Below are positions 37,609 to 45,240 of a DNA stretch of 64,000 nt, in pieces. Made by a program: the position numbers and the translations under genes. The DNA is taken from contig NZ_CP109444.1 in the NCBI RefSeq assembly GCF_036227225.1, positions 2,232,001-2,296,000 on the forward strand, in the 5' to 3' direction. Origin of the DNA: Streptomyces sp. NBC_01478 (GTDB lineage: Bacteria > Actinomycetota > Actinomycetes > Streptomycetales > Streptomycetaceae). Under the pieces are notes generated by a model. The model was not told where the DNA came from. It was given only the letters and a program-made list of their open reading frames with translations, and did no database searches. The number at the start of each line of letters is the position of its first letter. Within the stretch, counting starts at the first letter, position 1.

Positions 37609-38511
37609 TCAGGCGACCGTCTCCGCCGCCGCCTGCAACGCCTCGACCGCCGCGCGGATGGACGGGCGGCGGTCGGCGTCCGCGCGCCAGACGACGTAGA
37701 CATGTCGGCGCACCCGCTGCTTCAGGGGGACGGTGACGACTCCGGCGGGCATCGGGTTGCGGCCCAGCAGGGGTACGACGCAGACGCCCAACCCGGCGGC
37801 CACCAGGCCCAGTTGGGTGTGTGTCTCGGCGGCGCGGTGGCCGATGATCGGTTCGATGCTCCGGGAGCGCAGGGTGAACATCAGCCACTCGTGGCAGAAC
37901 TCGCCCTCGGCCCAGGTGATCCACTCGTCGTCGGCGAACTCCCCGAGGTCCACCTCCTCGCGCCCGGCCAGCCGATGACCGGTCGGCATCGCCACATCGG
38001 CGGGGTCGTCCAGGATCGGCGCCTTCACCAGACCGTCGGGCAGCGGCATCGGCTTGTTGTACCAGTCCAGGACGACGGCGAGGTCGAGATCACCGCGCAC
38101 GACACCCGCGATGCCACTCTCCGGTTCCTGCTCCGTGGAGCGGACACGAAGGGCGGGATGCCGGGCGCGGAGGGCGGCGAGCGCGGTGGGGAAGAGGCCG
38201 CGGGCGGCGGTGGGAAACGCCGAGATCCTCAACTCGCCCACGACCTGCCCCCGTTGGGCCTCCAGGTCGGCCTGCGCCAGCTCCACCTGGGACAGGATGC
38301 GCCCCGCGTGCTCCGCGAGCAGCCGGCCGGCGTCGGTGAGCCGCACCCCCCGCCCGTTCTTCGCGAGGAGCTGCTGGCCGACCTCCCGCTCCAGCTTGGA
38401 CATCTGCTGCGACACCGCCGAGGTCGTCACATGCAGCGCCTCGGCGGCACCGCTGACCGAGCCGTGCCGGGCGAGGGCGTCCAGGGTGCGCAGTCGCTCC
38501 AGATTCAACAT
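37609..38511 (-). CDS. LysR-family transcriptional regulator
   Basis: A 300-residue LTTR: N-terminal wHTH (LRTLDALARHGSVSGAAEAL, then TTSAVSQQMSKLE), a linker helix and the two-lobed ligand domain starting at VVGELRISAFPTA. Ligand unknown. It is divergent from an EamA transporter across 74 bases holding repeats, so that transporter is its likely target. Confidence 0.95.
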   Translation of the reverse strand: MLNLERLRTLDALARHGSVSGAAEALHVTTSAVSQQMSKLEREVGQQLLAKNGRGVRLTDAGRLLAEHAGRILSQVELAQADLEAQRGQVVGELRISAFPTAARGLFPTALAALRARHPALRVRSTEQEPESGIAGVVRGDLDLAVVLDWYNKPMPLPDGLVKAPILDDPADVAMPTGHRLAGREEVDLGEFADDEWITWAEGEFCHEWLMFTLRSRSIEPIIGHRAAETHTQLGLVAAGLGVCVVPLLGRNPMPAGVVTVPLKQRVRRHVYVVWRADADRRPSIRAAVEALQAAAETVA

Positions 38512-38519
38512 GTAAGCGA

Positions 38520-38561
38520 TGCTACGAGAAACCAGGCGCGAATTCTCGCTTGTGCTACGAG
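38520..38561. promoter_or_regulatory. LysR/EamA divergent regulatory region with repeats
   Basis: TGCTACGAG occurs twice in the same direction (38520-38528, 38553-38561). Between them CGAGAA (38525-38530) and TTCTCG (38543-38548) form an inverted repeat, spacing 12. A LysR tetramer could bind both. Confidence 0.5.
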
Positions 38562-38585
38562 GTTGGGGCCAGGATCTTGGTTCTC

Positions 38586-39545
38586 ATGACCAGCGCCGTG
38601 CCCACCGCCGCCACCCGGAAGCAGACCCGGGACACCGCCGACACCACCGCTCCCCTCCCCCGCCGCGCACTCGACTGGCGGCTGCGCTTCGGGGCGCTCT
38701 CCCTCATCTGGGGCTTCAGTTTCCTGCTCATCAAGGTGGGCACGCACGGCTACGCGCCCTTCCAAGTCACGTTCGGGCGGCTGCTGTTCGGGACGGCGGT
38801 GCTCGCGGCGGCGATGGCGGTGAAGCGCGAGCGGCTGCCACGGGGTGCGCGCACATGGGTCCGTCTGACGGTCGCCGCCTTCCTGCTCAACGCGCTGCCG
38901 TTCTCGCTCTTCGCCTACTCGGAGCTGACGATCCCGTCCACGCTCGCGGGCATCTGCAACGCGACCTCGCCGTTGTGGGGCATGGCGCTGTCCCTGGTCG
39001 CCCTCTCCGAGGACCGCCCGACCCGCGTCCGCGTTGCCGGTCTGGGCCTGGGCTTCCTGGGCGTCCTGACGGTCCTGGGCGCCTGGCAGGGCTTCCACGG
39101 CCTGGACGCCACGGGCACGGCGATGGCCCTGCTGGCCTCGCTCAGCTATCCGATCGGCTGGATCTACGTCCGCCGCACGCTGGCGGGCACCGACGCGTCG
39201 CATCTCTCCCTGACGGGCGCCCAGTTGCTCCTGGCGACCCTCCAACTGGCCGTCATCACCCCGCTGTTCACGTCGGTGCCGGCCCGCTTCCCCCTCCTCC
39301 CCCTGCTGGCGATCGCCGCGCTGGGCGCCCTGGGCACGGGACTCGCCGTCCTCCTCCAGTACGGCCTGGTCGCCGAGGTCGGCCCCACCACCGCCCAGAT
39401 GGTCACGTACTTCATCCCGGTCGTCGCCACGGCGGCGGGCGTCGCGATCCTGGGCGAGACGCTGACCTGGTCGACTCCGGTCGGGGCGGTGATCGTGCTG
39501 GCGGGGGCGGGACTTACGCAGGCGGGGCGCAGGGCAGGCCGGTAG
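38586..39545 (+). CDS. EamA (DMT) family transporter
   Basis: A 319-residue protein with ten TM helices in two EamA repeats (first ALSLIWGFSFLLIKVG; second AMALLASLSYPIGWIYVRR). The N-terminus has a 28-residue cytoplasmic extension. Members export amino acids or metabolites. ATG 38586 is chosen as the first good start; no strong ribosome binding site. Under probable control of the divergent LysR. Confidence 0.92.
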   Translation: MTSAVPTAATRKQTRDTADTTAPLPRRALDWRLRFGALSLIWGFSFLLIKVGTHGYAPFQVTFGRLLFGTAVLAAAMAVKRERLPRGARTWVRLTVAAFLLNALPFSLFAYSELTIPSTLAGICNATSPLWGMALSLVALSEDRPTRVRVAGLGLGFLGVLTVLGAWQGFHGLDATGTAMALLASLSYPIGWIYVRRTLAGTDASHLSLTGAQLLLATLQLAVITPLFTSVPARFPLLPLLAIAALGALGTGLAVLLQYGLVAEVGPTTAQMVTYFIPVVATAAGVAILGETLTWSTPVGAVIVLAGAGLTQAGRRAGR

Positions 39546-39588: not shown

Positions 39589-40920
39589 CTACGCGTACCC
39601 CCGGACCGGCGTCGGCCCGCAGGCGGAAGCGATCGCCTCCGCCAGGGCGTCCGTCTCGTCGGGTGTCAGGGTCGAGACGGTGACGCGGATGCCGGGGGAT
39701 GCGCTCAGCCGGAAGCGCGCGCCGGGAGCCACGGCCCAGCCGGCGTGGAGGAGGCGGGAGACCGCGCCGGTCTCGTCCGGTACGGGGATCCACACGTTGA
39801 GGCCGCTGATGCCGTGGGCCGCGACCCCGCGTTCGGCGAGCGCGGCGGTAAGCGCGTCCCGGCGGGCGCCGTACGCGGCCGCCACCGCCGGTGTGTCGAC
39901 CGCGCCGTCGGCCCACAGCCGGGCCACGGCCCGCTGGGTCAGGCGGCTGACCCAGCCCGGGCCCAGCCGTTGCCGGCCACGGACCCGGTCGAGGGTGACG
40001 GCGTCGCCGGTGAGCACGGCGAGCCGTAGATCGGGGCCGTACGCCTTGGCCGCCGATCGGACGAAGGCCCAGGTGCGGGTGGTGCCGGCCAGGGGGTGCA
40101 GGGGCTGGTCGACGATGCCGTGACCGTGGTCGTCCTCGATCAGCAGGGTCTCCGGGTGGGCCCGGAGCACGGAACGCAAGGCACGCGCGCGCGTGGCGCT
40201 CACCACCGCTCCGGTGGGGTTCTGCGCCCGGTCGGTGACGATCAGGGCCCGCGCACCGGACTCCAGCGCGGCGCGCACGTCGTCGGGGAGCGGCCCCTCG
40301 TCGTCGACACCGACGGGGGTCACGCGCAGCCCGAGCGCCGGTACGAGATCGAGCAGGCTGCCCCACCCGGGGTCCTCCACGGCGACGGTGTCCCCGGGCT
40401 TCAGATGGGCGCTCAGGACCCGCTCGATGACGTCCAGCGAGCCGGAGCCGACGGCCACGGGGCCCGCCGGGACCCCGTCCGCGTCCAGTTCGGCCCGCGC
40501 GATGCGCGCCAGCTCCGGTTCGACCGGGGCGTCGCCGTACATCACCGGTGCCCGGTCGGACTGTTCGGCGGCGAAGGTGAACGCGCGGGCGAGGGAGGGC
40601 AGCAGCGCCCGGTCCGGGTTGCCGTGGGAAACATCGCGCACCCCCGCCGGCACGTCCACCCGGATGTGCTCGCGCCCGGTCGTGGCCGGCTTGGGCCGCA
40701 CCCGGCTGCCCCGGCGCCCGGCGGTCTCGATGACCCCGCGCTCCCGCAGCGTCCGGTACGCGGCCGCGACCGTGTTCGGGTTCACTCCCAGCTCTACGGC
40801 CAACTCCCGCATGGGCGGCAGCAGTTGCCCCGGCTCCAGCTCCCCGGAGCCCACCGCGCGCTCGACGTCCGCCGCGATGTCCGCTGCGCGTCGCCCTTCG
40901 ATCCGATATCCTCCTAGCAC
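39589..40920 (-). CDS. MocR-type regulator (GntR wHTH fused to aminotransferase fold)
   Basis: The 443-residue protein joins a GntR wHTH (LPPMRELAVELGVNPNTVAAAYRTLRERGVIETAGRRGSRV) to a class I aminotransferase domain. PLP-binding Lys is in RSAAKAYGPDLRLAVL. Such MocR/PdxR proteins use PLP as effector, often in vitamin B6 or amino acid control. GTG 40920 is chosen because TAGTGT (40931-40926) would place the transcript start there; GTG 40929 is alternative. Divergent PPOX genes are likely targets. Confidence 0.93.
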   Translation of the reverse strand: MLGGYRIEGRRAADIAADVERAVGSGELEPGQLLPPMRELAVELGVNPNTVAAAYRTLRERGVIETAGRRGSRVRPKPATTGREHIRVDVPAGVRDVSHGNPDRALLPSLARAFTFAAEQSDRAPVMYGDAPVEPELARIARAELDADGVPAGPVAVGSGSLDVIERVLSAHLKPGDTVAVEDPGWGSLLDLVPALGLRVTPVGVDDEGPLPDDVRAALESGARALIVTDRAQNPTGAVVSATRARALRSVLRAHPETLLIEDDHGHGIVDQPLHPLAGTTRTWAFVRSAAKAYGPDLRLAVLTGDAVTLDRVRGRQRLGPGWVSRLTQRAVARLWADGAVDTPAVAAAYGARRDALTAALAERGVAAHGISGLNVWIPVPDETGAVSRLLHAGWAVAPGARFRLSASPGIRVTVSTLTPDETDALAEAIASACGPTPVRGYA

Positions 40921-40925
40921 AAAGC

Positions 40926-40943
40926 ACACTATGCACTAGTGCA
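40926..40943. promoter_or_regulatory. MocR promoter/operator with 12-bp palindrome
   Basis: TGCACTAGTGCA (40932-40943) is a perfect palindrome overlapping the region just upstream of the MocR -10 box. Repeated AGCAC elements (40916, 40923) precede it. MocR proteins often bind such repeats. Confidence 0.55.
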
Positions 40944-40981: not shown

Positions 40982-41668
40982 ATGCAGGGGACCACCTCGA
41001 AGCCGACGTCACCACCCGCCGCCTACACGCCCACCGACCGGACCGTCCCCACCCGCTCCGCGGACCGGGCGTCGTACGACAAGGAGCTGGTGCACGCGAT
41101 ACTCGACGAGGCCTATGTCTGCCACCTCGGCTTCGTGCGCGACGGGGCGCCGGTCGTGCTGCCGACGCTGTACGGGCGGGTCGGCGAGCGGCTGTACGTG
41201 CACGGTTCGACGGGTGCGCGCCCGCTGCGGATGACGGGGCAGGCCGATCCGGGGCTCCCGGTGTGTCTGACGGTCACGCACGTCGACGGTCTGGTGCTGG
41301 CCCGTTCCGCGTTCCACCACTCGATCAACTACCGGTCCGTGGTGGTGCACGGCATCGCCCACCAGGTGACGGACCCGCAGGAGAAGCGGACGGCGCTGGA
41401 CGCGCTGGTCGACCACGTCGTGCCGGGCCGGTCGGCGGACTCGCGGCCCGCGAACAAGAAGGAACTCGCCGCCACGATGGTGATCCGCCTCGACCTCGAC
41501 CAGGTCTCCGCCAAGCTCCGCACCGGCGGCGCCAACGACGACCCCGAGGACCTGGACCTCCCGCACTGGGCCGGCGTGGTCCCCCTCCAGCCGTCCTACG
41601 GAGCCCCGCTCCCGAACGACGACCTGGCCCCCGGCACCGAACTCCCCGACTACCTCGCCGCGTTGTAA
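40982..41668 (+). CDS. PPOX-class flavin-binding protein (NimA-like)
   Basis: A 228-residue split-barrel protein of the Pyridox_ox_2 family: YVCHLGFVRDGAPVVLPTLYGRVGERLYVHGST and SRPANKKELAATMVIRLDLDQVSAKLR. The His in CLTVTHVDGLVLARSAFHHSINYRSVV is family-typical. ATG 40982 with GGAG upstream. It overlaps the next gene by one base (TAATG). Confidence 0.92.
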   Translation: MQGTTSKPTSPPAAYTPTDRTVPTRSADRASYDKELVHAILDEAYVCHLGFVRDGAPVVLPTLYGRVGERLYVHGSTGARPLRMTGQADPGLPVCLTVTHVDGLVLARSAFHHSINYRSVVVHGIAHQVTDPQEKRTALDALVDHVVPGRSADSRPANKKELAATMVIRLDLDQVSAKLRTGGANDDPEDLDLPHWAGVVPLQPSYGAPLPNDDLAPGTELPDYLAAL

Positions 41669-42303
41669 TGCTCATCCACCCCTGGGACGCACCCCAGGAC
41701 GACACCGAGTGGCAACACTGGCTCGCCGCCCACGACTTCGGCCAACTGGCGGTCAACGGCCCTTCCGGAGAGCCCCCGTTCGTCCAGCCGCTCCACTTCG
41801 CCTACGACCCGGAGCGCGGCGAGGCGATCACTCATCTCGCCCGCCCCAACCCCCTGTTGCCCGCGCTTGAGGCCGCCCCTCAGGTGGTCCTGAGCGTCGT
41901 CGACGACTACGTGTACGTCCCGGGCCCCTGGCAGGCCGAACCGGACGGCCCGGCCGAGCACGGCGTACCGACGAGCTTCTACGCGGCGGTCCAACTCCGT
42001 TGCACCGCGCACCTGGTGGACGACCCCGCCGAGATGGCACCCCTCCTCGATCACCAGGTCGGGCACTTCCAGCCCGAGGGCGGCTCGTCGCCGGTCGTCG
42101 CGGGCGGGCCGCCGTACGGACGGCTGTTGTCCGGTATCCGGGTGGTGCGGCTCGAAGTGACCGGTGTGCGGGCGAAGTTCAAGTACGCGGGGAAGCGGTC
42201 GGCCGCGGTCCAGGACCGGATCGCGGCGGGGCTCGTGGAGCGGGGCGGGCCTCGGGACGCCGTGGCCCGGGAGCATCTGCTGCGCCGGCGCCGGGAAGGC
42301 TGA
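41668..42303 (+). CDS. PaiB-type FMN-binding protein
   Basis: The 211-residue protein matches the FMN-binding negative regulator PaiB family: FVQPLHFAYDP, ITHLARPNPLLPAL, VPTSFYAAVQLRCTAHLV and FKYAGKRSAAVQDRIAAGL. PaiB helps control spermine handling and sporulation in Bacillus. Translationally coupled to the PPOX gene; both are probably under MocR control. Confidence 0.92.
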   Translation: MLIHPWDAPQDDTEWQHWLAAHDFGQLAVNGPSGEPPFVQPLHFAYDPERGEAITHLARPNPLLPALEAAPQVVLSVVDDYVYVPGPWQAEPDGPAEHGVPTSFYAAVQLRCTAHLVDDPAEMAPLLDHQVGHFQPEGGSSPVVAGGPPYGRLLSGIRVVRLEVTGVRAKFKYAGKRSAAVQDRIAAGLVERGGPRDAVAREHLLRRRREG

Positions 42304-42315
42304 CGGGGTCTCTCC

Positions 42316-43263
42316 TCACCTCGGCAGGGGGTTGCCGGCCGTCGCCGTGCGTGCCTCCGTCACCGCCAGGCCCGTGACCGAGGCGAGCATCAGCAGGGTG
42401 CCGGCCAGGGTCGTGGGGGTCAGTGGTTCACCGAGCAGGGTGACGGCGAGGACGGCCGCGCTCACCGGTTCCAGGAGCATGATCACGGAGACGGTGGCGG
42501 ACCGTACGACGGCCGCGGCCGCGAAGTAGAGGGCGTAGGCGAGGGCTGTCGGGACCGTCGCGATGTATCCGAGGAGCCACAGGACTTGGCCGGGCTGGGC
42601 GGTGTGCGGTACCAGCCCCTCGGCCAGGGCGAACGGGAGCACGCACAGGCAGGCGACCGCGAATGTCCCGACCGCCGTGGCGGACGCGTCGGTTCCGCCG
42701 TCGCGTCCCCAGCGTCGGGTCAGCAGGGTCATGGCCGAGCCGCCCGCCGCCGAGACGAGCGCGAGCAGCACACCCGACGGACGTACGGTCGCGGCCGGGC
42801 CCAGGAACAGGACGGCGAGGCCGGTGAGCGCGCCGCCCACGGCGACCGTGCCGCCGGCACCGAGCCGCTCGCCCAGGGTGAGCCGGGCACCGAGCGCGAC
42901 GAGGACGGGTCCGGCGCCCAGCGTGACGACGGTGGCCACGACGAGCCCGGTGGCCGCGACGGCCGCGAAGTAGGCCGTCTGGAAGACGGCCAGCCCGAGC
43001 CCTGTCGTCACGGTGCGCAGTGCCTTGCGGCCGAGCGGTTCGGCTACGGCGGTGGGGCGCGCCCTCGGGCGACGGAGGAGCCGGACGGCGAGCAGCAGCG
43101 CGAAACCGGCCGCGCAGCGCCAGAAGGACAGGGCGAGGGGGCCGAGGTCACTGGCCCGGTAGACCAGGGAGGCGGCCGCGCCCGCGGTGCCCCAGGCGAC
43201 TCCGGCGATGATCAGGTAGAGCAGGCCTCGCCCGACGGGCAGGCCGAGAGCGGTGTTCGACAC
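42316..43263 (-). CDS. EamA (DMT) family transporter with attenuator-like leader
   Basis: A 315-residue, ten-TM EamA exporter ([17 protein letters not shown]; second repeat [18 protein letters not shown]). GTG 43263 has a weak ribosome binding site. The 165-base leader carries a peptide frame and hairpins, and the promoter sits inside the end of the upstream EamA gene. Substrate unknown. Confidence 0.92.
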
Positions 43264-43282
43264 GAGAGGTCTCCGCAGAGGT

Positions 43283-43367
43283 GCAGAAGTGCGACGAGGA
43301 ACCCCTGTCGGCGGGGTCCATGGGCTTCTTCTGCGGGCAGCACCGTTCCGCCCGGCTCTGCCGGGCG
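43283..43367 (-). promoter_or_regulatory. Structured leader RNA before the EamA gene
   Basis: Two hairpins on the minus strand: CGCCCGGC/GCCGGGCG with a three-base loop (43349-43367), and GCAGAAG/CTTCTGC (43283-43289 with 43328-43334) enclosing ACCCC/GGGGT. They lie between a leader peptide and the EamA start codon, as in attenuators. Confidence 0.5.
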
Positions 43368-43386
43368 TGGATTCCGGGGGCCCGCC

Positions 43387-43428
43387 TCAGGCGGCCGGCG
43401 GCGGAAGAACGAGGACGTTCCGGTGCAT
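43387..43428 (-). CDS. Candidate 13-residue leader peptide
   Basis: ATG 43428 encodes MHRNVLVLPPPAA then TGA. Promoter position predicts a leaderless mRNA starting one or two bases upstream. Val and Leu codons include GTT and CTT, both rare in this genome, and the Pro-Pro-Pro run is a known ribosome-stalling motif. No ribosome binding site is needed if leaderless. The peptide precedes the EamA gene; its role in attenuation is inferred. Confidence 0.45.
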   Translation of the reverse strand: MHRNVLVLPPPAA

Positions 43429-43435
43429 GATCGGG

Positions 43436-43465
43436 AGCCTAGGCGGCCGTTCCGCGGCGGGACAA
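43436..43465 (-). promoter_or_regulatory. Promoter of the leader peptide and EamA gene
   Basis: On the minus strand TTGTCC (43465-43460) and TAGGCT (43441-43436) are 18 bases apart. The -10 box begins with the stop codon TAG of the preceding EamA gene. Expected start 43430-43429. Confidence 0.65.
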
Positions 43466-44455
43466 CTCCCTTTCGGGGCCGCCGCCGGCCACCGGCTCCT
43501 CGGAGCCCTTCGTGGGCGCGGAGGACTGCGCGATGAAGGCGCCCAGCAGGACCACCGCTCCCCCGACGATCTGCGGCGCGGAGAGGTGTTCGCCGAGCAG
43601 GACCCAGGCCAGGACGGTCGCGATGACCGCTTCGAGGCACGCCACGACGCCCGCGACCTGCGGGGAGAGGCGGCGGACGGAGACGACTCCGGTGACGTAC
43701 GCCAGGACGGTGGCGATCAGCACGATCCAGGCGAGCAGGACGGCGGCCGGGACCGCGGTGCCGTTCATGTGGGCGTCGCCCTCGAGGATCGACCAGTCCA
43801 TGGTCCAGGGGCGGGCCACAGCGGTGAGGACGAGGGCGCCGACGAGCAGGCCGTAGGCGATCACGCCGAGCGGGTCGGGGGCCTCGGTGCCGGCGTCGCT
43901 GCCCTGGTCGGACAGGACGAAGTAGCCGACCTGGCAGCAGGCGGCGGCGAGCGCGAGCAGCAGTCCCACGGCGTCGAAGCTCAGGCCCGCCCACACCTCG
44001 ACGACACAGGCGAGTCCGCCGGCCGCGAGGACCACACCGAGCGCGGCGGCCCGGGTGACGGGACGCCGCTGCACGAACCGCACCCAGCCGAGCACGAGGG
44101 CGGGTGCGAGGTACTCCACGAGCAGGGCGACGCCGACGGGTATGCGGGAGATCGCGGCGAAGTAGCAGGCCTGGACACCGGCCACGGCGAGCAGCCCGAA
44201 CCCGAGGAGCAGCGCGGGACGGCTGCGGACGAGCGCGCGGTGCCGTACGGCGAGGGGCAGCATCACGAGGGCCGCGCCGGCCACCCGCAGCCACACCACG
44301 TGCAGCGGATCGAGCCCCGCCTCGATCAGCGGCTTCGCCGCGACCCCGGACCCGCCGAAGGCCAGCGCGGACCCGAGCGCGAGGCCGAGCCCGACACCCT
44401 TGCCGCCACCCTTGCCACCGCCGGCCGCACTGCTCTCAGACGTATGCACGGGCAC
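43439..44455 (-). CDS. EamA (DMT) family transporter
   Basis: A 338-residue, ten-TM EamA protein (ALGSALAFGGSGVAAKPLIEAGLDP; second repeat LLLALAAACCQVGYFVLSDQ). The Gly/Ser/Lys-rich N-terminal arm and C-terminal polar tail are cytoplasmic. GTG 44455. Its stop codon is part of the next gene's promoter. It may export amino acids or related metabolites. Confidence 0.92.
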   Translation of the reverse strand: MPVHTSESSAAGGGKGGGKGVGLGLALGSALAFGGSGVAAKPLIEAGLDPLHVVWLRVAGAALVMLPLAVRHRALVRSRPALLLGFGLLAVAGVQACYFAAISRIPVGVALLVEYLAPALVLGWVRFVQRRPVTRAAALGVVLAAGGLACVVEVWAGLSFDAVGLLLALAAACCQVGYFVLSDQGSDAGTEAPDPLGVIAYGLLVGALVLTAVARPWTMDWSILEGDAHMNGTAVPAAVLLAWIVLIATVLAYVTGVVSVRRLSPQVAGVVACLEAVIATVLAWVLLGEHLSAPQIVGGAVVLLGAFIAQSSAPTKGSEEPVAGGGPERELSRRGTAA

Positions 44456-44556
44456 ATGATGACAGCGGATGACATGAGCGTCACCCCCGTTTGCACCTGT
44501 CTCAGGAGATGGACGAGCCCCTTACCGGTGCGCTCGGCGAACCGGAGGGACGCGGA

Positions 44557-44700
44557 CGGCTCGGCGGGCCGGGGGATACGGCGGCTCAGCGGGCCGGGGA
44601 TACGTGCGGCTCGGCGGGCCGGGGACGCGTGCGGCTCGGCGGGCCGGGGACGCGTGCGGCTCGGCGGGCCGGGGACGCGTGCGGCTCAGCAGCCCGTCTC
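44557..44700. repeat. 25-bp tandem repeats, five copies plus a partial
   Basis: Units with CGGCTCGGCGGGCCGG start at 44557, 44582, 44607, 44632, 44657 and a shorter one at 44682. The period is exactly 25, and the later units end GGACGCGTG. The block fills the gap between convergent/diverging genes and runs into the 3' end of the Clp-N gene. Confidence 0.85.
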
Positions 44701-45240
44701 GCCGCCGCCCCCGACGTACTCCCCCGAGCGGCCCTCGATCCAGATCAGTACCTCGGGGGACTCGATGCCGGCGCGGTGGAGGACCTCGACGGCGCGGGAC
44801 CCGGGGTCCGCGACGATCGTGGCGAGGAGGTCGATGCCGGACGCCAGGTCGTCGCCGCGGAGTTCGGCGCGCTCGCAGGCGTGTTCCAGGGCATCGGCGG
44901 CCAGGGGCGACCAGCCCTCCGCCGCGGCGATCACGGGGATCGCGCCGGAGTCCTCGACCGAGCCCTGCCAGCGGAGGCCGTAGCCGATGCTGCGCTGGAC
45001 GAGGTAGCCGAGCAGTCGGGCGATCTGCGGGCCGTCGCCGAAGACGGCGCGTGCCTCGGAGTCCGACTCCAGGAGGCTGTGCAGCAGATGGGCCGTGTCG
45101 ATCTGCCGGTCCCCGTCCCGCAGGGCCCGGCGGCGCGCACCGGTGACCACCGCTGCCAGCTCTGCACTGAGCCTGGCATCGTTGTCCGCGCGGTGGATTC
45201 CCTGCTCGTGGACCGACTGCCTGGGGATACGGGGTTGCAC
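44686..45240 (-). CDS. Clp N-domain protein
   Basis: A 184-residue protein with two Clp-N repeats (RLSAELAAVVTGARRRALRDGDRQIDTAHLLHSLLE; LAADALEHACERAELRGDDLASGIDLLATIV), as in the substrate-binding domain of ClpC/ClpA, but with no ATPase. Such free domains may act as adaptors or decoys for Clp proteolysis. GTG 45240 follows GTAGGAGA. Its end lies in the 25-base repeats. Confidence 0.9.
   Translation of the reverse strand: MQPRIPRQSVHEQGIHRADNDARLSAELAAVVTGARRRALRDGDRQIDTAHLLHSLLESDSEARAVFGDGPQIARLLGYLVQRSIGYGLRWQGSVEDSGAIPVIAAAEGWSPLAADALEHACERAELRGDDLASGIDLLATIVADPGSRAVEVLHRAGIESPEVLIWIEGRSGEYVGGGGETGC

Follow-up and report, generated by a model that had tools for sequence, protein, structure and literature searches.

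Introduction

Ribosomes are slow on Pro-Pro-Pro when elongation factor P (EF-P) is short or when tRNA-Pro is poorly charged. The closest described counterpart of the element reported here is mgtP, a leader peptide of the Salmonella mgtCBR operon which, according to the available part of its report, has three consecutive Pro codons and no intrinsic terminator, as here, and gives higher expression wherever a drop in charged tRNA-Pro is predicted (PMC3641672). The leader peptide considered here lies in a 64,000-nucleotide stretch of the 12.1 Mb chromosome of Streptomyces sp. NBC_01478 (NZ_CP109444.1, positions 2,232,001 to 2,296,000; hereafter the window, numbered from its first letter), between two EamA-family transporter genes that we call EamA1 and EamA2, and we think it likely, though well short of certain, that it is a ribosome-mediated attenuator that reads the decoding of Pro-Pro-Pro and controls EamA2. 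The likeness to mgtP is one of logic only and no sequence relation is claimed: mgtP has 17 codons and a Shine–Dalgarno-like sequence, follows a second, ATP-sensing open reading frame (ORF) and belongs to Mg2+-related genes of enterobacteria (PMC3641672), whereas the present leaders are mostly of 11–15 codons, are predicted to be leaderless, carry PPP nearly always two codons before the stop and precede EamA genes in Actinomycetes. The mgtA leader, also Pro-rich, is unrelated to mgtP.

Two further systems bear comparison, in both cases as far as the accessible part of the source goes. The attenuators listed for Streptomyces lividans (leuL1/2, ilvL, trpL1/2, thrL, metL and alaL) resemble the present leader in that they are leaderless from the leader ATG (alaL excepted), encode peptides of 12–29 codons and are followed by hairpins, often with no uridine stretch, but the amino acids ascribed to them are others, they stand before biosynthesis, tRNA-ligase or import genes, and none of the eight has consecutive prolines or an EamA gene (PMC8079986). 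HisL-based reporters, in which test motifs replace the His codons of an attenuator, measure stalling at Pro motifs and the action of EF-P, which has been linked to secondary metabolism in organisms of the present kind; these are artificial and work in Escherichia coli, whereas the present case would be natural (PMC11611912). An open-access library, searched in full text, yielded no description of the present leader, subscription papers lying outside that scope. In the parts of that literature available, natural polyproline-reading leaders concern enterobacterial Mg2+ genes; here the gene family and the phylum are different and the geometry is rigid.

Conservation of the leader peptide

EamA1 (338 residues, 43439..44455, minus strand) and EamA2 (315 residues, 42316..43263, minus strand, GTG start at 43263) are separated by 175 bp. 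Within this gap lies the leader ORF (MHRNVLVLPPPAA, 13 codons, 43387..43428, minus strand), whose ATG at 43428 is ten bases past the EamA1 stop and whose TGA (43389-43387) is followed after 123 nt by the start of EamA2. Homologues of EamA2 (E <= 1e-80) were found in 272 of 392 genomes of the genus, to which nearly all the named relatives of the organism belong. EamA1 lies upstream of EamA2 in 163 of 167 loci and, after removal of the four without EamA1 and of 30 with identical intergenic DNA, 133 distinct Streptomyces-type loci remained. The leader ORF, of the form [V/I]L[P/S]PP[A/V]x-stop or a close variant, is present in 129 of these, with its ATG 10 nt from the EamA1 stop in 112, 11 nt in 13 and elsewhere in four; the leader of L076 lies at 116 nt. 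Of the four misses, L022 has the leader but on the far side of an insertion, L061 had its gene position set wrongly, L062 reads ACG in place of the ATG and L069 lacks the conserved stop. As for the four loci without EamA1, L027 and L028 have PPP leaders and L029 and L030 more distant ones. A query of 251 bp of upstream DNA gave a match (E <= 0.001) in 198 of the 392 genomes, ranging from near full length down to the EamA1 end alone; in some genomes only query positions 1-66 match, that is, the C-terminal codons of EamA1 that bear the leader promoter (43435-43500, minus strand).

Lengths in the 129 leaders are 13 residues in 88, 12 in 22, 11 in 17, and 15 and 9 in one each. Counting codons back from the stop, −8 is Val in 124, −7 is Leu in 125, −6 is Pro in 123 (Ser in six), and all 129 have Pro at −5 and −4, where each position shows three different codons. 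Variation amounts to 1.0–1.5 bits in the third positions of the codons for Val, Leu and the last two prolines (0.3 at −6) but to 0–0.3 bits in the first and second positions of the core codons, the pattern expected of selection on the peptide. This pattern, together with the in-frame changes of length and the fixed place, marks a short translated ORF upstream of a regulated gene, although it should be noted that a transcript shared by leader and EamA2 is a prediction from the promoter. The earlier note on this DNA, made from its letters alone, had read the ORF as a leader peptide with the motif VLVL-PPP and had taken conservation in relatives as the means of checking it. The peptide is indeed conserved; the part of the motif that holds is the core VLPPP, while VLVL belongs to the clade of the window alone (where ALVL predominates), and the N-terminus is variable in both sequence and length.

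The note had also called the GTT and CTT codons rare, which they are: GTT, CTT and CCT account for 1.7% of Val, 1.4% of Leu and 2.1% of Pro codons in seven coding sequences of the window and for 1.4%, 1.3% and 3.0%, respectively, in the EamA2 genes of the 133 loci, yet they are favoured in the 129 leaders (79, 97 and 80 sites, respectively). They could slow decoding or prevent wrong RNA pairing.

Across the family of the source organism, 112 of 150 genomes and 12 of 17 genera have relatives of EamA2. Upstream DNA was taken for 60 of the non-Streptomyces matches: the leader, in places as a close variant, is present in 59, and a contig end truncates the sixtieth; eight additional loci from other genera (L213-L220) all have it. 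The N-termini of these leaders are diverse and their ends much less so (MHSTVLPPPAA, MKPYSLAVLPPPAR, MRSRILPPPVR), with VLAPPAR, PLPPPAAR, ELSPPVR and MLLPPPVR among the variants of the 59. Across 188 leaders exactly two residues separate the proline run from the stop in 186 (one in L236, three in L254); 173 have PPP-x-x-stop and 13 more have SPP, APP or PPPP with two residues after.

More distant relatives were covered by two scans. In the first, of 20 further EamA relatives, the leader VHRLFPVTPPP[GS]S-stop is found at 8 of 8 loci of genus g3 (family f3), and MSTYWHAVTPPPCA, MHRTGRRQLPPPTA and VDQYRITCPPPRS, each followed by a stop and with VT, QL and TC before the prolines, occur at one locus each, two of these loci being in Streptomyces. 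The remaining nine, including a paralogue from the source genome, have no such leader, although far upstream two of them carry a short ORF with PP and some residues at its end, which was left uncounted. The second, class-wide scan used three EamA queries against 197 genomes each and accepted a short ORF if it had a TAnnnT box (see below) and ended with 1-4 residues after PP. From 89 loci fetched, 27 were dropped as the same genes reached by a second query and seven as Streptomyces, leaving 55, of which 19 have a leader, whereas 435 control windows of the same length gave a single hit (as L332 and L374 belong to one gene, the count by gene is 18 of 54); at the other 36 no leader passed the promoter filter. 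Analogous leaders ([V/I][T/S/L]PPPxx-stop) stand before EamA homologues in five further families, two of them represented by single loci. Among those of the class-wide scan, family f21 has MHRLFPITPPPAS and MHRTYPITPPPAL, family f19 has MTPFIVSPPPAR, MIHQTRLFVTPPPRS and the weaker VNYHWHKVLPPLSA, and the single loci are VNSRVLPLGILPPPVV in f28 and VARRTSTPPPRR in f30, all ending at a stop. Of the 19 leaders, 14 end with two residues after the prolines, three have another residue in place of the third Pro with the distance unchanged, and L332/L374 has one residue more than usual. Val or Ile lies two places before the prolines in 18 of the 19 and in all eight genus g3 leaders; the Leu that adjoins the prolines is mostly replaced outside the family by Thr or Ser, and PPP or PP is always present. 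Other EamA relatives in f28 carry VTHHLVLPPPA-stop 83 nt upstream (L386, without a TAnnnT box at the expected place) and MTPQPRLLPPPAA-stop 161 nt upstream (L171).

In the 12.1 Mb of the source genome a 24-nt pattern encoding [V/L]LPPPAA and a stop (in its TGA form) has a single match. In 394 genomes of the class, with the stop as TRR, it gave 28 matches against about 33 for the reversed pattern, that is, no total excess, so the case for other families relies on the scans anchored on EamA. Of these matches 25 fall in the 40 Streptomyces genomes (reversed pattern, four), every one upstream of an EamA2 homologue; of the remaining three, one is accompanied by a 32% EamA relative and the others by no EamA2 match.

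A promoter that predicts a leaderless transcript

The arrangement pointed out in the earlier note, TTGTCC (−35, 43460..43465, minus strand), 18 nt, TAGGCT (−10, 43436..43441, minus strand), 7 nt and the ATG at 43428, is present as described, the first three bases of TAGGCT being the EamA1 stop codon, so that the 3' codons of EamA1 contain the leader promoter. It is also conserved: a TAnnnT box lies 6-8 nt upstream of the leader start in 127 of 129 loci, compared with 0-1 of 129 at 16 shifted positions, and a TTGn[A/C]n hexamer lies 18 nt before it in 116 of 129. In the other genera of the family the box accompanies at least 45 of 59 leaders, this figure being a lower bound because the script sometimes took an internal GTG as the start. 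A simple sigma-70 scan reported no promoter, TAGGCT agreeing with TATAAT at three places only and falling under the scan threshold. A TAnnnT box 7 nt upstream of the ATG predicts a leaderless mRNA with transcription starting at 43429/43428. The S. lividans study, in the part available, gives TAnnnT as the consensus of mapped −10 elements and 17% as the share of leaderless transcripts, and counts among these seven of the eight leader peptides in its list (PMC8079986), so that the leaderless form is what would be expected of a leader.

Pairing downstream of the leader stop

In the window and its clade the leader stop is followed by hairpin 1, hairpin 2, GTGCTGCCCGCAGA and the EamA2 Shine–Dalgarno sequence inside TCTGCGGAG (all features in this section are on the minus strand). 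Hairpin 1 is formed by the last leader codons (segment 1, 43390..43396) with the bases after the stop, the stop codon lying in the loop; just 3' of the stop is segment 2 (GCGGGC, 43380..43385). Hairpin 2 (GCCCGGC-AGA-GCCGGGC) spans 43350..43366. Segment 3 (GCCCGC, 43333..43338) is complementary to segment 2 and is overlapped by an anti-Shine–Dalgarno sequence (CCGCAGA, 43330..43336) that can pair with segment 4 (TCTGCGG, 43273..43279), which overlaps the Shine–Dalgarno GGAG (43274-43271).

The two hairpins before GTG 43263 that the earlier note had seen are there, although they are only weakly better than shuffles: in single-sequence folding of the window z was −1.44, and 20 of 200 shuffles folded equally well, which is weak and not decisive. 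An alignment of 42 close relatives (from 52 compact candidates) has 98.3% of cells paired in the hairpin 1 helix, with a few compensatory pairs, and 96.3% in hairpin 2; its third helix involves the anti-Shine–Dalgarno sequence. As its helices hold in 96% of cells and seldom vary, pair counting is weak evidence here; double-change pairs numbered 3, compared with 0.6 in shuffles and 1-3 in slid versions of the alignment, and the covariation score was 0.036, with one slid version higher at 0.056.

The evidence for an alternative pairing comes from more diverse leaders. By eye, distant leaders keep the complementarity of segments 2 and 3 in altered sequence (AGCGGGG/CCCCGCT, CCGGGCGCGA/TCGCGCCCGG, CGGGCGC/GCGCCCG, GCGGGG/CCCCGC). 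In a swap test on 21 loci, hand-picked for diversity, segment 2 co-varies with a segment 25-140 nt downstream, pairing at −20.2 kcal/mol with its own partners compared with −18.3 kcal/mol with swapped ones (P = 0.0002); no such preference was seen in two neighbouring control windows (P = 0.31 and 0.84). Pairing of segment 3 with the Shine–Dalgarno region was better than swapped in Streptomyces (P = 0.004), the only set in which that test was significant. No intrinsic terminator (GC-rich hairpin plus T run) was found between 42000 and 44700 of the window (shuffles, 0.2), and the seven Rfam matches at E <= 10 in 43200-43500 were all under the gathering score.

Ribosome position and the predicted choice of pairing

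The effect of a ribosome on these pairings was modelled by removing the RNA 5' end up to the presumed front edge and folding the remainder at 30 degrees. Leaders with detectable segments were used, amounting to 179 of the 188 for Shine–Dalgarno exposure, 177 for the scan of edge positions and 153 for forced pairing. For nascent RNA of 124 Streptomyces loci the mean probability of segment 2:segment 3 pairing was 0.07 for naked RNA, 0.34, 0.48 and 0.64 with the edge at −12, −9 and −6, 0.74 with the edge right behind the stop, and 0.41 and 0.01 at +3 and +6 nt. In 53 other loci it was 0.10 naked, 0.65 right behind the stop and 0.04 six nt further. In these foldings of the Streptomyces loci the pairings are mutually exclusive by ribosome position, segment 1:segment 2 falling from 0.50 to 0 as segment 2:segment 3 peaks at one edge.

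The front edge of a ribosome lies about 15-16 nt past the P-site codon. With the second Pro in the P site a ribosome would thus end at the segment 2:segment 3 peak, whereas one standing at the leader stop codon would abolish the pairing. (For mgtP, the accessible part of the report uses a distance of 12-15 nt; PMC3641672.) The coincidence of the peak with the place where a PPP-halted ribosome ends gives a reason for the rigid order of PPP, two codons and stop, and Pro at −5 and −4 directly precedes the codons that form hairpin 1.

The comparison thus supports, at the level of sequence, a translated peptide, a leaderless promoter, a near-fixed PPP-x-x-stop spacing and co-varying segments 2 and 3. 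To these we add by inference that the ribosome pauses, what makes it pause, which way EamA2 responds and that the Shine–Dalgarno sequence is released, as follows. The transcript would start at the leader ATG and be translated at once. The ribosome would slow at Pro-Pro-Pro when formation of the Pro-Pro bond is poor, through low charged tRNA-Pro or limiting EF-P (as a pause signal both fit), and the Val or Ile two residues upstream probably deepens the pause. A ribosome halted with the second proline in the P site would have its front edge at the leader stop, covering segment 1 and leaving segment 2 (GCGGGC) free to pair with segment 3 (GCCCGC). Without a pause the ribosome would depart, hairpin 1 would capture segment 2, and segment 3 could pair with the Shine–Dalgarno region (CCGCAGA:TCTGCGG). 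A pause would, by analogy, raise EamA2.

Several results weigh against this scheme. The switch is weaker in full-length RNA, where segment 2:segment 3 pairing in Streptomyces (naked, −12, −9, −6, 0, +3, +6) was 0.10, 0.10, 0.18, 0.24, 0.44, 0.22 and 0.01, the best value thus being 0.44, and was flat at 0.18-0.20 from −6 to 0 in the 53 others. In the swap test the window locus ranked only 17th and L270 18th of 21, and single loci that beat shuffles for segment 2 (P <= 0.05) numbered 3 of 29 deep ones, 11 of the 129 and 20 of the 59 from other genera, the DNA being GC-rich. For segment 3 and the Shine–Dalgarno sequence the swap test gave P = 0.35 in other genera and P = 0.26 in a set collapsed to 62, in which one neighbouring control window was nearer to significance (P = 0.056), and in family f21 the minimum-energy fold permits both pairings together. 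The unpaired probability of the Shine–Dalgarno sequence was 0.21-0.33 in Streptomyces and 0.16-0.31 in the others at every edge, with no peak at the leader stop, and forcing segment 2:segment 3 changed it only from 0.29 to 0.32 in 113 Streptomyces loci (more than 0.1 higher in 34 and more than 0.1 lower in 29) and from 0.29 to 0.35 in 40 others (higher in 14 and lower in 6 by the same measure). Lastly, three Pro codons leave the retention of Val or Ile unexplained. The simple proposal that a stall frees the Shine–Dalgarno sequence was set aside, as neither equilibrium-folding test (edge scan or forced pairing) showed exposure; coupling of the switch to EamA2 could lie in co-transcriptional timing, in an effect on transcription or in an RNA-binding protein.

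What the leader might sense

The same Val/Ile residue is a point in favour of a nascent-peptide or drug sensor, in which [V/I]-[L/T/S]-Pro-Pro in the exit tunnel, perhaps together with a compound that binds the ribosome, would arrest the ribosome and EamA2 would export that compound or a toxic metabolite, after the manner of inducible resistance leaders. Within the family Val/Ile-Leu are kept as amino acids while their codons change (TTG for Leu included), and Val or Ile precedes the prolines almost throughout the class-wide and genus g3 leaders described above. Transporters of the EamA family export small molecules, and resistance leaders of such a layout are common. On the other hand the residue adjoining the prolines differs among families (Leu, Thr, Ser, Cys) and the three single loci have VT, QL and TC, EamA2 is common in the family (112 of 150 genomes) unlike many sporadic resistance genes, and there is no known inducer, so that we regard this explanation as unlikely. 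Since Leu is mostly lost outside the family while Val or Ile is kept both inside and outside it, the nascent chain probably matters too, and a drug-dependent arrest keeps some probability.

The earlier note had proposed a stalling attenuator coupling branched-chain amino acid or EF-P status to EamA2. The attenuator itself finds good support in the comparison, through the translated leader, the predicted leaderless start and the competing pairings; branched-chain sensing, in which the GTT and CTT codons would be the sensors and PPP incidental, is weakly supported at best and seems to us very improbable. Val-Leu-Val-Leu in the window, the preference for rare GTT and CTT, the Val or Ile codon retained in most distant leaders and the similar MRTRILVLGKRVG-stop in ilvL of S. 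lividans (PMC8079986, Table 4, in the part available) would fit it. The first Leu, however, is gone outside the clade of the window (TVLPPP, GVLPPP), and outside the family the remaining Leu is mostly replaced while the prolines stay, which makes such sensing unlikely as a shared function. Ribosome position separates the two readings in part. A ribosome starved of Val would stop about 11 nt short of the best position and one starved of Leu about 8 nt short, a contrast that is clear for Val and moderate for Leu: pairing at the Val-starved edge (about −11) is well under the peak in all four comparisons and that at the Leu edge (about −8) is about half of the peak in full-length Streptomyces RNA, but nascent pairing already reaches 0.48-0.64 at −9 and −6, near the Leu-starved position, and in full-length RNA of the 53 other loci the edge at −6 equals the best value. 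Least probable of all is action through termination and re-initiation or transcript stability with no alternative pairing, which would suit the lack of a thermodynamic link between switch and Shine–Dalgarno exposure and of an intrinsic terminator (42000-44700), but for which 123 nt from leader stop to EamA2 start is long (it is shorter in some relatives), and under which segments 2 and 3 would not be expected to co-vary across families and peak at one ribosome position.

Returning to the attenuator that reads Pro-Pro-Pro, its wider form, in which a leaderless [V/I]-x-PPP-x-x-stop mini-ORF is an ancient element of several families of Actinomycetes, an EF-P/tRNA-Pro meter of Pro-Pro bond formation that sets the level of EamA with the distance from PPP to stop as its ruler, is put forward tentatively, the chances being close to even and slightly on the unfavourable side. 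If this is true, proline and EF-P status would be metered naturally in a setting other than Mg2+ control, the leader would serve as a ready-made reporter of that status, and the signal for leader pausing should indicate the substrate of these widespread transporters.

Genes around the leader

Each of EamA1 and EamA2 has two Pfam EamA matches (1.1e-27 and 1.4e-26, respectively). For EamA2 the model TIGR00950 (amino acid/amine exporter 2A78) scored 94.8 bits against a cut-off of 230.2, so that of the putative amino acid exporter in the earlier note the EamA family stands and the substrate is a family-level guess. Neither PADLOC nor a sequence search of the PDB produced a usable result for the leader RNA or EamA2. 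Beyond EamA2 in the window lie a PPOX protein (Pfam; 41668-42303, plus strand), a PaiB-like flavin mononucleotide (FMN) protein (40982-41668, plus strand) and a MocR-type regulator (39589-40929, minus strand), the last two named by inspection. MocR-type and PPOX relatives are downstream of EamA2 in all 69 Streptomyces loci with long flanks and a PaiB-like gene in 33 of the 69; these neighbours hint, and no more, at a tie of EamA2 to pyridoxal-phosphate or amino acid metabolism.

A third EamA-type ORF (38550-39545, plus strand) lies less than 7 kb away beside a LysR-type gene (37609-38511, minus strand), both named by inspection, with relatives in the same orientation in 62 and 60 of the 69 loci, respectively. 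On the other side, a unit of about 25 nt (GAGCCGCACGCGTCCCCGGCCCGCC) is repeated head to tail at 44560-44700 (minus strand), between EamA1 and the gene upstream of it, which has a Clp_N match (44686-45240) and whose end the repeats touch.
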